Assembly (NCBI RefSeq): GCF_000485595.1
Contig: NW_014577107.1
Span: 372,193-393,209, forward strand
DNA from: Priapulus caudatus
Taxonomy: Eukaryota > Priapulida > Priapulimorpha > Priapulimorphida > Priapulidae
DNA length: 21,017 nucleotides
Direction of reading: 5' to 3'
Part shown: positions 1,045 through 9,699 of the stretch, in pieces
How positions within the stretch are numbered: position 1 is the first letter of the stretch
How the letters are laid out: each line of letters opens with the position of its first letter
Notes under the pieces: generated by a model
Seen by the model: the letters and a program-made list of their open reading frames with translations, nothing else
Database searches by the model: none
Told to the model about the DNA's origin: nothing
Position numbers and translations under genes: made by a program

Positions 1045-1302
1045 GTAAACAGCGTAATGATTTGAAAGTAGTAAATGGGCGCACTATTTCGTATCACTAT
1101 TTTATTAAATTTCTCATAAAATAATTGTCAGATTTTTAATATCTTTGCAACTTTTATTAGTACAAATCTTATTACATAGGATACGAGTAACGTGGCTGCT
1201 GTAAAACTTGTAGTAAAAAAGCGTTACAAATTGTAACCGAAATCTACTTGTGGCAGTGGTAGATTGAGCCTATGAGCGAGAGCGCCATATGTCGTGGAGT
1301 TT
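1045..1302 (-). repeat. Dispersed repeat, copy A (inverted relative to copy B)
   Basis: Read on the minus strand, this segment aligns nearly end to end with 7107-7374. Both carry, in the same order, CGCTCAT(A/G)GGCTCAATC, CACTGCCACAAGTAGATTTC, TACTCGTATCCTATGTAATA, AAAAGTTGCAAAGATATT and GCGCCCATTTAC. By eye the identity is roughly 90 percent. A third partial copy is at 9700-9855. The family is AT-rich, non-coding and unnamed by me; a non-autonomous transposon or part of a larger element is likely. Confidence 0.88.
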
Positions 1303-1780
1303 GTACTAGTCCTGGATGTAGTCCAGCAGTGCAGAACAAGAGAGGTGGAACCAGAGAGAATGCTTTGAAGTATGTGATGAAATAGAAACGGCAAAAAGCC
1401 TTTTGATATGACAGTGAATTTTAAGCTCACCAGGGGATTCGTTCCATATTGTGGTGAATGCAATGGCAGCATATTTCTGAGGTTATGCAATTCTTTGAAT
1501 AAGAGATGGCTGTCAGGCGTTTTAAGGTATGATAACGTTCAGAATACAAAAAAAAACTATATGTGACAGTTGAATTAATATAATCACGTGGATTTATTCC
1601 GTCTAGCAATGACTGCAGAGGTAACCCAATCAGCTGTCATGCAAATTTTGAATTGGTATTCTGTGGCAAAGTTTGCTGACTGGATGTTCGATAATGTGAC
1701 ACAGCCTTTCATAATTCTTCCTATTTCGCACGTTTCTTTTTGTGATATAGTTATATGGAACTATCCGCTGTATTGCGTAT
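1303..1780. other. Intronic sequence without recognised features
   Basis: No repeat, exon or structured element was recognised. Short open frames on both strands match no family I know. Confidence 0.5.
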
Positions 1781-2150
1781 GTCTCTCATTCTTGCCTGCC
1801 TGTGTATTTATCTATGCCGGCCTACCTCCCCCTTGCTTTCCCATCCTCACGTACTCCTCTGCTCTTTTCCTCACCCCCCCCCCCCCATCGTCTTCATTTC
1901 CATCTGCTTCTTTTCTTGCTTTTTTATCCGTGTTTACCGCTCTCCAACTTCTCTCCTTCTTTCTTCATCCCTCTATACCCCTCTCCCTTTTCTTATCCCT
2001 CTATACCCCTTTCCCCTTTCTTATCTCTCTGTACCTCTCTTCCCTTTCTTATCCCTCTATACCTCTCTTCCCTTTCTCATCCCTCCATACCTTTCTCCCC
2101 TTCCGCATTCCTGCATAGTCCTCTCCCCCTACCTCCCGCGGCGCCTGTCC
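1781..2150. repeat. Pyrimidine-rich tract containing a period-28 minisatellite
   Basis: The + strand is strongly C/T-biased, including a run of about nine or ten C near 1867. Between about 1960 and 2106 a degenerate unit with the core ATCCCTCTATACCTCTCTTC repeats with exact 28-base spacing: cores start near 1967, 1995, 2023, 2051 and 2079. Several overlapping frames stay open through it and give Ser/Pro/Leu-rich translations, which is what a pyrimidine tract produces. It is not a gene. Confidence 0.9.
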
Positions 2151-3363
2151 TGTTCGCGGGTGTGTGCATGCCTGTGCAGCATCCCTGCCGCTGATGACGA
2201 ATATGAGGAGCGCAGTACTAGTAGCATGCGACCGTGCTGGCGGGCATCGAACGGTGGAGTCTGCCTCACACATTAATCCCATGTCAACATGCACGTAGCC
2301 AAGCAGAAGGCAATGCTTCTTGGATTGACCATTCCCTCAGCAATTTGATGGAATCATTTGAAAATTGAACGTCGATCTACAGAAAGGAGGGGAGCATAAA
2401 CTGTCTTCGCGGGCGCCGACTGATTCTTTCGGGGGGGGGATGTTTCCAGCATGCTCGGCTATTACACGAACGATTTTTCTTGGTTTAAAAGATATCCGTT
2501 AAGGGCCGGCATGCGAGGAAATCTTCAAAGAACATGTTATGGATGGCTGACGTCGGTTATTTGCTGGATACGAAGCTTTCTGGATGAAGCCATGATCGAG
2601 GCAAGACCAGCGCGAATTGATTATATATATAGGGAGGTGGGTGCATGTGGTTCTCGCAGTGAAAGTGCGTCACAGCTAAACACGGTCTAGAACATGGAGA
2701 GAGAAACTCAGGAGGAAAAACATAACATTAAATTTCTAATAGCGATACGCCTGATGTGTATACTTTAATTTACACATGAAAAAAATGTTTATAACAACAT
2801 ATACAGTGACTAATATGGGCGTGTAGACCGGATATATAGTTGGTAGTGTACACTGAAATGCGTGCAGGTCGTTGTATTAATAGACGCTGACGTGCCAGAT
2901 ACATGGCGTGCAATAGATATACTAGTTGATTTTCGCAGTCGATACACAATTTACAATTCATTACTGGTCGCGTTCCCCGGCGACAAGTTCTGCCGACTGC
3001 TGAAACAGTGGCGATCACACCGCGTCCGTAGAGTTATCACCGAGTGTCTGCTGGGAGCGCGCTGCTGTAGTAGTGTGGTGCGGCCGCCATGTTACCAGGC
3101 ATGGGGCCAATTCGATTAGGCAGTCCGGACTCTCCAGTCACGAGGCACCAGCCGGAGCGCATGCAGGCAGGCAAGCAGACCCGTGACTCTCTGCCCCTGC
3201 CAGCTGATTGCCTGGCTTCCCGAGCCCCTTCTCTCTCGCTCTCTGTGAGAAGCGCGTGGCCGGCGTGTCTTCGGCGACGAGATTGCCCTTCGCGCTATCG
3301 ATTGTATTGTCTTGCCAAGTGTTTGCCCACGTGGTTCCAAAAGCAATTCCCCCACCCGCCCGC
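2151..3363. other. Intronic sequence without recognised features
   Basis: About 1.2 kb was scanned on both strands. Open frames are short and unrelated to families I know. A CT-rich patch lies near 3225-3245. No tRNA, exon with splice sites, or inverted repeat was recognised. Confidence 0.45.
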
Positions 3364-3628
3364 CAACCTGCGCGCGCGTGTGTACGTGCGTGCGCGCGCG
3401 TGTGTGTTTGCGTACGTGGGTGAGTGCGTGCGTGGGTGATTGCGTGCGTGCGCGGGTGTGCGTGCGTTCATGTGTAAGTGCGTGTGTGGGTGTGTGCGTG
3501 CGCCCGAGTGTGCGCGCACGTGCGTGCGTGCGTGGGTGTGCGTGCATGCATGTGTAAGTGCGTGCGTGTGCGTGCATGCATGTGTAAGTGCGTGCGTCTG
3601 CGTGCATGGATGTGTAAGTGCGTGTGTG

Positions 3629-3660
<32 letters not shown>

Positions 3661-3694
3661 TGCGTGTGCGTGCGTGCGTGCGTGCGTGTGTTTG
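3364..3694. repeat. GTGC/GT minisatellite with a 30-base higher-order unit
   Basis: The tract alternates purine and pyrimidine (GTGCGTGC, GTGTGT, GCGCGC). Within it, ATGTGTAAGTGCGTG recurs with 30-base spacing (starting near 3550, 3580 and 3610), with an older copy near 3470. Open frames on both strands read through it as Cys/Val/Arg-rich or His/Thr/Ala-rich peptides, an artefact of the repeat. Alternating purine-pyrimidine DNA of this kind can adopt the Z form. Confidence 0.95.
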
Positions 3695-4921
3695 AGTGCC
3701 AAGAAGAAGAAGAACGGGAGGGTTGCCGCGCTCCCTGTGGACGCCTCAGAGCGGCGCGTGTCGCCTCGTGCGAGCGGCAGCCTTGGCGGCGCCGTCTTTG
3801 GCGGCATCTTTGCACCTCGAGGTCAACAAGCGGTGCTTCTGCCGGCGGCGTAATTACACGAGAAATGAATGAACATTGACTCCCGCTCCTCGGTTCCCAC
3901 CGTGCGTGAAACCGGCAATGCAGCCGGTAAAATATAAATTACGAAGCAGGGTTTGTATGCGGTCTCGAAAACCTGGTATGAGTATAGCGAGAGCGCAGAG
4001 ACTGCCTTTGCTGCAATATTTGTCGCATCGGCGCGAAAAGCAGAGCGTAAAGGAGATGGTGTAGCAGATTCCATTTTGTAATGATGTATATTTTGCGTTC
4101 CATTGATGGTGGCGTCGCGAAGGTGATAGTTTTTGATGTTACTGCCTAGCTAGGCAGGTTTCTGCGCGTGTTCGAGCGTATGTTTCGGGTGTTGATGAAC
4201 AGTGTGATGTGTATATAGAGCAATCGGACATGAAATAACTCACGCTGAGCATTATACGTTTTCTCAGCGGAGCAAGCTAAAAAGCAATCTGCTTAATATT
4301 GAATCGTCATGCCTGGCTGCGTATGCAGACGTTACTGCAGCTCCACAAATGCAGCTGAGGAAGATGATGATTCTTATACGTGCAAGACTGACAGCGTTTT
4401 CAGATTGATTGCGGGATATTGCAGTAGTAAATCATTGTAGTGGAAGTCTAGCTGTCCGTGCAAATACCAGCGTATATATATGTGTGGCAGTATCTTCCGT
4501 TTTCCAGCATGTGGGTGTCACAGACGCATGGTCGAGTGTGTTGTCATCCCAGTGCACATACATCAACGATAAAAGTATTTGGCAGTGATTATCGTTCGTT
4601 GGTTTTCAGCATACGATTTCCCGTTATTAGAAATTCGTATTATTCAAAAGGTGATAGGTTCCTTGATGTACACCATTACGTTTTATCATACACAGATTTG
4701 TACTGCGCTCAGTAAACGGTGTAGAAATATTTACGCTGTTACCGTGATTTTTTTCTCTGAGCGACTTCCCCCCCCCCCTCCTGCCTCTTAGCAAACCATG
4801 TCCAGATCCGAGCGCATTCGACGGAAAGTGATATCTGTCTGCATGCTGCGCGTAAGTGATTGCATTTTTTTGGGAGTCGTAAAACTGATGCTTTCGTATC
4901 GTACACTTAGTCGGAACATCT
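3695..4921. other. Intronic sequence without recognised genes
   Basis: The region contains a GC-rich patch near 3720-3850 and a C-run near 4769-4778. Open frames are at most about 85 codons outside the repeats and none is recognisable. No splice-flanked conserved exon was seen. Confidence 0.45.
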
Positions 4922-6806: not shown

Positions 6807-7094
6807 CTATCCCCCGGGCGTGAAGGGAGGTTACCACAACGTGGCAGCACTAGTGTTAGGATTAGGGTTAGGGTCAGGGTTAGGGTTAGGGTTAGGGTTT
6901 TTGCATCATGATATCTGTCCCCACACCATAGATTAATTTTTGTGGATCACAGAACCTATATATAGTGCTCCGAGATATATATGTTTAGTGTTAGGGTTAG
7001 CGTTGGAGGTGGTGGGGAGCGTTACCGGATGAGTAATGATTTTGAAGTATACGTCAACTGTATCACGTGACCCTCCCTCCACGCCCGGGGGATA
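6807..7094. mobile_element. Foldback-like element enclosing TTAGGG repeats
   Basis: The left arm 6807-6830 reads CTATCCCCCGGGCGTGAAGG then GAGG. The right arm 7071-7094 reads as its reverse complement with one mismatch, A versus G. The arms enclose about 240 bases containing telomere-type repeats (6855-6900 and a degenerate pair near 6983-7001). The right arm sits 12 bases from the start of dispersed-repeat copy B, so the two may belong to one composite insertion. No clear target duplication was found. Confidence 0.6.
6855..6900 (+). repeat. Interstitial telomeric repeat (TTAGGG)n
   Basis: Seven hexamers in register (GTTAGG, ATTAGG, GTTAGG, GTCAGG, then three GTTAGG) plus a partial unit make up this tract, with two diverged units. 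TTAGGG is the telomere repeat of vertebrates and of many other animals, while most arthropods use TTAGG, so this argues mildly against an insect host. Confidence 0.93.
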
Positions 7095-7106
7095 GCAACA
7101 CCCCTC

Positions 7107-7434
7107 AAACTCCACGACAGATGGTGCTCTCGCTCATGGGCTCAATCTACCACTGCCACAAGTAGATTTCGGTTACAATTTGTAATGCTTTTTTACTACA
7201 CGTTTTACAGCAGGCACGTTACTCGTATCCTATGTAATAAGATTTGGACTAATAAAAGTTGCAAAGATATTAAAAATCCGACCGTTATTTCATAACAAAT
7301 TTGATAAAATAGTGATACGAAATAGTACGCGATTGTGCGCCCATTTACCTCTTTCAAATCATACGCTGTTTACGAATCTCCATTCGCTGGACGATCGGCA
7401 GCCCGGATATCCACGCGAAGCGCGAAAAACGCAG
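7107..7434 (+). repeat. Dispersed repeat, copy B (longest copy)
   Basis: The core 7107-7374 matches copy A in inverted orientation; about 7236-7386 matches copy C (9700-9855) in inverted orientation. The 3' extension 7389-7432, with CGGCAGCCCGGAT and CGCGAAGCGC followed by AAAAACGC, is repeated at 10203-10247. It therefore carries both segments that appear separately elsewhere and is the best template for a consensus. No open frame of note is present. Confidence 0.87.
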
Positions 7435-8260: not shown

Positions 8261-8526
8261 TAGACTGGTACCCGTTTGCCACCTTGACTCCGGCATATAT
8301 CCTTCGCTACACTGACGTAGTGTAGCGTGTCGAACTCTCCACCGGGTACCAGTCTATATGCATATAGCCTGCCTCGTATCCTGCAGCTCGGCCGGCTATA
8401 ACCGGCTATAACCGGCCTAACGGCTAGACTCGTACCCTGTCGACAGTTGCACACGCTACACTAACTAACTTCAGTGTAGCGAAGGATACTTGCCCGAGTG
8501 AAGGTGGCGAACAGGTACCAGTCTAG
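8261..8526. mobile_element. Nested palindromic (foldback) element
   Basis: Two units of about 100 bases, 8261-8356 and 8424-8526, are inverted copies of each other around a centre holding CCGGCTATAACCGGCTATAA. Each unit is itself palindromic: TAGACTGGTACC at one edge and GGTACCAGTCTA at the other, with CGCTACACTGA and its inverse TAGTGTAGCG inside. Shared blocks include GCCACCTT, TATCCTTCGCTACACTGA and TAGTGTAGCGTGT. The first unit can thus fold alone and the two units can also pair with each other. It has no coding capacity. No certain target duplication was found, though GCTATA occurs close to both sides. Confidence 0.82.
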
Positions 8527-8753
8527 CTATAACCCCCCAAACTGCGTCCAGCGCCCGTTCGCGATTATTTTTTGCGTTAACGCGTCAGCGCTCGCTATGC
8601 GTATTGGGAATGCTTGCGTCACAGGTCAACAGAGATGGTGGTGTCCCCATAAACACTCTTTATACCCCCTTCACATACATGGATTTTTCTTACGAGTCCT
8701 TACGGATCGCACAATTCGTAAAAGTACACGGATCCTTACGATTTGGCTACTTT

Positions 8754-9029
8754 TACGAGCGATTTACGTGTTATTACGAGCTATTTACGATTTATTACGG
8801 ATTATTACGAGTTATTACGATGTATTTACGGCGAAATTCCACAATTTGTTAAGAGTTGTCACGGATAACTACGAGCAACTTACGAGCATTTTACGAGCTT
8901 TTTACGGATTGTTACGGATATATTACGGAATGTTACGATTTATCGAAGCTTTTACGTGTTAGTTACGACCTGTTTACGTGTTGTTACGAGTAGGTACGAG
9001 TTAGTTATGAGTATTTACTAGTCCTTACG
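8754..9029 (+). repeat. Left-arm phased TTACG(A/G/T) array of the MITE
   Basis: TACG cores start at 8754, 8765, 8775, 8786, 8796, 8806, 8816 and 8827. Degenerate cores follow near 8850 and 8860. The array then runs 8870, 8881, 8892, 8903, 8913, 8924, 8934, 8953, 8964, 8975, 8985, 8995, degenerate sites at 9006 and 9016, and 9026. Steps are 10 or 11 bases except for skipped or decayed positions. From 8870 to 9026 there are 15 steps in 156 bases, 10.4 per step. All motifs are on the + strand. Confidence 0.93.
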
Positions 9030-9211
9030 ATTTTTTGGCAAAAAGTATATAAAAATCCTGCAAATCTCAATCTGTCATCAACTTGTTGACTGCCTTCTTT
9101 TTTGGAACCATGCTTGTAGATATTGTAGAGTAGATAAACAGAGATGTGACTTCTCTGACTTCTTGATAACAACTAAAAATGACATGTTCGATTTTGCAGC
9201 CTTTCCCAAAT

Positions 9212-9297
9212 CGTAAACAATACGTAAGAATACGTAAAGTATACGTATCTATTCGTAAAGTGCTCGTAATAACTCGTAACAATCCGTTACAATCGTA
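9212..9297 (-). repeat. Phased array, reversed block (CGTAA orientation)
   Basis: CGTA (reverse complement of TACG) starts at 9212, 9223, 9233, 9244, 9254, 9265 and 9275. A CGTT variant is at 9285 and another CGTA at 9294. Spacing is again 10 or 11 bases, except for the last step of 9. The motifs are on the opposite strand to the flanking blocks. Confidence 0.9.
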
Positions 9298-9304
9298 CAA
9301 TTGT

Positions 9305-9552
9305 TACGAGTCATTTACGGATTATTGCAAGCAGTTTACGGATGGTTACGTGTTGTTGCGAGCGGTTTACGATACTTACGGATTGTTACGAGTTGTTTAC
9401 GGAAAAAATCAATCCGTGGACACTCGTGAGTAGATTTTTGACATGTCAGAAAATTTGCCTCTCCTTTCACGGATCCTTACGAGTGTCTGCGAGTTGTGAC
9501 GACTTAATACGGATACCAGCGAGTTATTTACGGATGCTTGCGATTGACTACG
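9305..9552 (+). repeat. Phased array, right-arm forward blocks
   Basis: TACG or a one-base variant starts at 9305, 9316, 9326 (variant), 9337, 9347, 9357 (TGCG), 9368, 9377, 9387 and 9398. After a gap of about 70 bases it resumes at 9469 (CACG), 9478, 9488 (TGCG), 9498 (GACG), 9508, 9518 (AGCG), 9529, 9539 (TGCG) and 9549. The variants keep the spacing although the motif has mutated. Confidence 0.88.
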
Positions 9553-9699
9553 AGTTGGCGATCCGTAAGGACTCGTAAGAAAAATTCGTGTATGTGAAGG
9601 GGGTATTACTCCACTACACAACAAATTGTGTTTACACAGGTCTTGTAACCCTAGCAAAGACCGTTTCTTGGAGCTAGTAGTAGTACTAGCTCTAGTACT

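Follow-up and report, generated by a model that had tools for sequence, protein, structure and literature searches.

Why is a short element in the genome of the priapulid Priapulus caudatus filled with one five-base word that recurs about once per turn of the DNA helix? The stretch analysed here, referred to as the window, comprises 21,017 nucleotides of contig NW_014577107.1. Within it, an element at positions 8663-9605 carries TTACG 32 times and CGTAA nine times, compared with 2.2 and 1.1 occurrences expected in 943 bases at the rate of the window. An initial annotation had described this region as a MITE with a helically phased array and had proposed nucleosome positioning or co-operative protein binding as its role. 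Here, we examine its structure, its relatives in the genome and the distribution of constraint within it and weigh what the array may be for.

Structure of the element and its arrays

The extent of 943 bases given for the element is correct, as judged from inverted ends of 48 bp and a TTA on either side that corresponds to a target-site duplication (8660-8662 and 9606-9608). The arms at 8662-8710 and 9558-9606, 49 nt each with one flanking base included, are 96% complementary, and the ends of the family are TACCCCCTTCACATACA-like. The left terminal inverted repeat (8663-8710, plus strand) holds the first two TTACG sites at 8690 and 8700, 10 bp apart, and the right one (9558-9605, minus strand) also holds two, which appear as CGTAA at 9564 and 9574. 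In the majority sequence of 16 copies, five array blocks are present in addition to the two sites per terminal repeat. In the window, blocks L1 (8736-8835, with TACG at 8737 and 8754-8827), L2 (8869-9035, with TACG from 8870 to 9026), R1 (9300-9405) and the degenerate R2 (9470-9557) lie in TTACG orientation on the plus strand. Block Rinv (9208-9298) resides on the minus strand, and its CGTAA words read as TTACG inward from the right end. The sites in the terminal repeats and the inner arrays of both ends, L1 and L2 on the left and Rinv on the right, present TTACG when read inward, while R1 and R2 run against this rule. Rinv is shortened in the window copy, with 93 bp from its first CGTA to R1 compared with 195 bp in the 16-copy majority. 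The array had been said to fill most of the element. It does fill much of it, but in the form of five blocks of both orientations and around a non-array centre between L2 and Rinv (about 9030-9207) that contains gene remnants.

A match to Nucleolysin TIA-1 in the PDB (E 1.1e-10) was obtained for an exon at 635-730 of the window, so that the element probably lies within an intron or the flank of a TIA-1/TIAR-like gene. Some further features were noted in passing. The plus-strand RNA of the element folds far better than 20 shuffles (z -13), as is expected because of the inverted ends and blocks. Just upstream, at 8262-8525, lies a separate palindromic element, recognised by eye, with arms GCTACACT...AGTGTAGC and ends TAGACTGGTACC/GGTACCAGTCTA. 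Another repeat, also found by eye, is present in two inverted copies at 1020-1330 and 7080-7380. The sequence TTTACGAG may resemble posterior-Hox sites.

Periodicity and phasing

The TACG and CGTA sites of the element taken together (50 sites in 8663-9605) gave a Fourier peak at a period of 10.35 with a power of 17.8, whereas the strongest peak among 500 dinucleotide-preserving shuffles, all periods considered, had a power of 10.9. The period of about 10.4 bases originally reported for the array is thereby borne out, as are the individual TACG positions (8754, 8765, 8775, 8786, 8796, 8806, 8816 and 8827) and the range 8870-9026. Pairs of TTACG at lags of 10, 11 and 21 number 10, 10 and 11, with shuffle means of 0.0, and the spacing of single steps averages 10.45 (38 steps). 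Fourier and autocorrelation analysis against shuffled controls had been suggested for TA steps as well. These do not show a Fourier peak above the shuffles (power 4.9 versus a mean null maximum of 5.0), although TA pairs are raised at the same short lags (25, 21 and 24 versus about 9 expected). The array is therefore real and is carried by the word and not by the TA step.

The statement that all sites face one side of the duplex is valid within each of the five blocks, where phasing is tight (R 0.87-0.99, best periods 10.14-10.58), but it fails between blocks. Coherence of the forward blocks is 0.654 compared with a mean of 0.774 for rigid blocks placed at random offsets, a value at least as high as that observed being obtained in 95% of 2000 trials. 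When the inverted block is included, this fraction is 0.73 for the TA step and 0.45 for the CG step. A single phase across the whole element is thus rejected. Since the blocks are phased internally and out of register with each other, the natural unit of any assembly on this DNA would be the block.

A multicopy family

When the 385-Mb genome was searched, whole or partial relatives of the element were found at at least 33 places, a number that results from merging 114 matches by hand and that includes the window, many partial copies and a satellite on contig C19. Sequence was retrieved for all 32 places other than the window. Of the 33 places, 26 were extracted, and the same array blocks recur across these copies or parts. 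Sixteen of the 26 were aligned, while ten partial or poorly bounded ones were left out of the alignment. Both ends were detected at 13 loci, five of which are flanked by exact 3-bp duplications (TTA, TAA, TAA, TCA and TTA); mismatches or altered ends are found at the other eight. Target-site duplications of PIF/Harbinger transposons typically read TWA. The 3-bp duplications and the terminal inverted repeats of the window element agree with this superfamily, and the 8-bp duplication of hAT elements is not seen, as all five exact duplications measure 3 bp. The ends are conserved, similar copies are numerous and the window copy contains gene fragments instead of a complete gene, which supports the description of the element as a MITE, i.e., a multicopy, internally deleted transposon. 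The family copy on contig C304 (L039) has its left end inside a third copy of the 1020-1330/7080-7380 repeat, at TAA, and its right flank lies past the end of the contig.

In a pattern search that returned 452 matches, compared with 131 for the reversed pattern, 71 of the 100 matches listed fall into array-family copies, 25 into the C19 array and four elsewhere (C7 and C18). The C19 array (L040, 912-1400) is a satellite of mostly 20-bp units, TTACGAGTAG TTACGTGTTG, that adjoins an assembly gap. CGTAA occurs 42 times in this locus, and 35 of the 41 spacings are exactly 10 bp. It shares words with block L2 and may be derived from it.

Gene remnants and the search for an autonomous parent

The centres of the copies encode the starts of two convergent genes. 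The left-hand gene is seen only as a start of 34 residues. In copy C2065, it consists of a TATATAAAA word followed by ATG and MAYERNRLQLYQQFLQLLLQLAQREERA..., whereas the window copy lacks the ATG and retains TATATAAAAA at 9046-9055 on the plus strand as a possible promoter. The right-hand gene, read on the other strand from the right end, starts with MAPKKKAVNKK-like residues in the copies. Its remnant in the window (9070-9111, minus strand, MVPKKKAVNK...) is truncated by the internal deletion. Copy C445 preserves more than a kilobase of the right-hand gene, including a MADF_DNA_bdg domain (PF10545, 24.7 bits, cut-off 22), though the gene appears to be broken there. Directly beside a second broken copy of the MADF gene on the same contig, a Myb_DNA-bind_5 gene (E 1.6e-19) is located at L075 1787-2377.

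A protein search with the C445 MADF protein returned 14 relatives from the database, 11 of which carry precomputed PF10545 annotations, and the domain was found in all three relatives that were scanned. A second gene with a Myb/SANT/MADF domain, as is typical of PIF/Harbinger transposons, is thus present both in the C445 copy, above the cut-off for PF10545, and in its relatives. The best of these is a protein from the hagfish Myxine glutinosa, 86% identical over 73% of the query, while a relative from Mytilus edulis is 65% identical over 78% of the query. The hagfish protein (P0002) has the N-terminus MAPKKKAVNKK, nearly the same as the start of the family's right-hand gene, and this ties the window fragment MVPKKKAVNK to the MADF gene. 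The high identities to hagfish and mussel proteins (P0002-P0008) hint at horizontal transfer of the parent transposon or at a widespread recent family.

A complete autonomous copy and a transposase of the family were not found among the long copies, isolated TIR-like matches and C445 loci that were searched. In this search, no match to Pfam was obtained for six frames of the C445 loci. The genome contains 150 scored matches to PF13359, one of them beside a related MADF gene, and none was shown to belong to an element with the ends of this family. A distant MADF relative (25 of 79 residues identical) on contig C1246 faces a DDE_Tnp_4 gene at a distance of about 2.2 kb. Judged from its domains, this pair follows the two-gene plan of PIF/Harbinger transposons. 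The locus lacks a TTACG array, and terminal repeats flanking the pair were not recognised.

The 3.78-kb copy C184 (L036) was considered as an autonomous partner and rejected, as its interior is another transposon nested in an array-family copy. This nested element (L036, about 1209-4153) has inverted ends of about 330 bp and is also found at C367, C156 and C354 (L065-L067). With a piece of its protein, 55 matches were obtained in the genome, and some of these fall in open frames of over 700 amino acids; the one related open frame scanned, of 778 amino acids, gave no Pfam match over the cut-off. The isolated TIR-like matches C74, C409 and C1125 were likewise discarded, since they feature neither an array nor an opposite end within the 3.0-4.4 kb around each. 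A search of a phage collection gave no match.

Conservation of core and spacer

The 16-copy majority sequence resolves into 60 grid units, 51 of which contain TACG exactly. At the other nine, a degenerate word often remains on the grid, as had been noted for sites that have lost the motif. The exact TA step is kept in 52 and the CG step in 58 of the 60 units. Pairwise identity among units is 0.871 for the five-base core and 0.395 for the spacer. Deviations amount to 21/300 core and 140/300 spacer positions when implied sites may shift by one base, and to 27/300 and 148/300 without such shifts. Since units were anchored on TACG, implied sites were shiftable and long gaps between blocks were left ungridded, conservation of the core is overstated to some degree; with a spacer identity of 0.395, this is unlikely to explain the contrast between core and spacer. 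The p-value for this contrast (Fisher, about 1e-16) is a guide only, because units and copies share descent. The claim that spacing is kept better than sequence is not confirmed, as the core is strongly conserved among units and the spacing drifts as well in C127, the most decayed complete copy.

A comparison of the 16 copies gives a different picture. Substitutions affect 213/3626 core and 223/3644 spacer positions, with 114 private variants in the 255 columns of the core and 102 in the 254 columns of the spacer. In nine of the 16 copies the core has a lower rate of change than the spacer and in seven a higher one, and given this split a weak constraint on the core after insertion could have been missed. 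The element ends change like the arrays (94/1512), while columns outside arrays and ends differ at 623/4756 positions (0.131), about twice the value for core or spacer (0.06). We blame this on the heterogeneous and poorly aligned centres; the alternative is a slower change of the arrays as a whole. Constraint specific to the core among units together with equal decay among copies means that, as units diverged in the source lineage, the core remained constant, and there is no indication that it has been retained more than the spacer after insertion. Such a pattern is more in line with sites that the element requires for its movement than with a host function preserved in place.

What the arrays may be for

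Could the array be a neutral minisatellite, a 10/11-bp word amplified by slippage and now decaying, with its helical spacing a mere coincidence of unit length? Copies do differ by whole units (10, 11 and 42 bp, for example), so that unit number varies and many units must be dispensable. Furthermore, deletion runs between copies are most often 1 bp and next most often 10 bp long (13 runs of the latter length, many of them inherited from a common ancestor), with indel runs being mostly 1-3 bp and not whole units, and the satellite on C19 repeats the same words at steps of exactly 10 bp. These observations suggest that slippage or recombination reshapes the arrays, which explains the multiplication of units but not the constancy of the core. 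Uniform decay cannot yield a spacer so much more divergent than the core, and mutation bias is not the cause of that contrast because both change at an equal overall rate between copies. As the same word also resides inside the terminal inverted repeats, we regard a purely neutral origin as unlikely.

Nucleosome-positioning DNA, in which a TA step at each turn would fix nucleosomes over the element and shield or expose its ends, appears more doubtful still, and this part of the initial annotation is not favoured. Steps of A/T and G/C are indeed periodic at 9.8-10.5 bp in the five blocks and lie 4.4-4.9 bp apart, as they do in nucleosome DNA, and in summed power 15 of the element's 39 tiles rank above the 99th percentile of the 1004 tiles elsewhere in the window. 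In our judgement, however, such an antiphase is probably automatic for any 10-bp repeat of this composition. Moreover, the constraint falls on one exact, directional 5-mer and not on classes of steps, direction is fixed within each block although it is irrelevant to a nucleosome, and block periods vary. There is also no clear constraint in place after insertion, core and spacer being lost at an equal overall rate. The least likely of the readings weighed here is that of sites for a host transcription factor or repressor without any role in transposition, by which the arrays would drive or silence the two genes of the parent. On each side, the inner arrays are indeed placed between the terminus and a gene start, on the left about 20 bp ahead of the TATATAAAA word, but TTACG is also present inside both terminal repeats at the same spacing, and copies with only gene fragments still have arrays. 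If the binder were the MADF protein itself, this explanation would overlap with the one we prefer.

Taken together, the element is probably a non-autonomous, internally deleted derivative of a PIF/Harbinger-type two-gene transposon, and its TTACG arrays would be subterminal docking sites for the MADF protein. The idea of co-operative binding by a transposase or host factor can thus be narrowed, and we favour the element's own MADF/Myb-SANT-like second protein as the candidate, with or without the transposase. Molecules of this protein would occupy neighbouring TTACG units, one at each helical turn, assemble within each block into a short filament along one face of the helix and bring the transposase to both terminal inverted repeats. 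The parent's own genes may be controlled by such binding as well, as the inner arrays are located just upstream of both gene starts. The identity of the binder, its co-operativity, the recruitment of transposase and self-regulation are steps that we infer, in part by analogy with Harbinger3_DR and IS1535. Points that speak against this reading are the lack of register between blocks, the orientation of R1 and R2 and the variable unit number among copies.

Relation to known systems

MADF proteins are of the gene-2 type of PIF/Harbinger transposons (PMC9710019). In zebrafish Harbinger3_DR, a Myb-like protein recognises a 9-bp subterminal motif and acts with the transposase (PMC9710019, PMC2836001), and, according to the same source, DNA binding has been shown only for this protein within PIF/Harbinger (PMC9710019). 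Harbinger3_DR and insect PIF share the 3-bp duplication, terminal inverted repeats, a second gene of the MADF/Myb-SANT type and non-autonomous derivatives with the window family (PMC9710019, PMC2836001). The descriptions of these elements do not mention an array, whereas in the window family about 60 units follow one another at 10-11 bp, grouped into five blocks. Medicago MtPH-A6-4, also a PIF/Harbinger element, features subterminal tandem repeats in variable number, but these are 60-bp units with a triplicated AAACNNCTTATT motif and not 10-11-bp steps, and no binding role is proposed in their description (PMC2213677).

Outside the superfamily, the left end of IS1535 (IS607 family) likewise carries short, helically phased direct repeats, four in number, on which transposase nucleates and binds co-operatively as a filament; it differs from the window element in its bacterial serine transposase, its four motifs and its unrelated chemistry (PMC6188088). 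Subterminal repeats of hAT elements are described there as variable in spacing and orientation (PMC6188088). Maize Ac/Ds contains many short, CpG-containing AAACGG repeats that are bound co-operatively by an element protein, the Ac transposase, but belongs to the hAT superfamily, generates 8-bp duplications and has its hexamers in the terminal 200 bp (PMC3260210). Galileo resembles the window family in having repeated sites for a THAP transposase in long terminal inverted repeats and differs as a member of the P superfamily with three sites far apart (PMC3688188).

The view that no element of such architecture has been described thus needs qualification. Related designs are in print (IS1535, MtPH-A6-4, Ac and Galileo). 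In the open-access literature, keyword searches at the level of titles and abstract beginnings did not reveal an element with so many phased sites, nor a PIF/Harbinger element with a long array of sites at 10-11 bp.

It is conceivable, though we put this forward as a tentative proposal, that in one PIF/Harbinger lineage dozens of helically phased sites per end serve the MADF protein to build one-faced filaments, which would bring the ends together for transposition and act as a switch for the two genes of the parent, as a eukaryotic counterpart of the IS1535 filament. How the two proteins of PIF/Harbinger transposons find the ends is known from few elements. With about 60 near-identical sites and a named candidate binder, this family would allow direct tests of how the motif is recognised, whether binding is co-operative and whether helical phasing is required. 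Constraint among units combined with equal decay among copies furthermore provides a cheap test by which sites serving the element can be told from those serving the host. If the proposal were true, the filament design would be widespread in marine animals, given that hagfish and mussel possess proteins of the same lineage.
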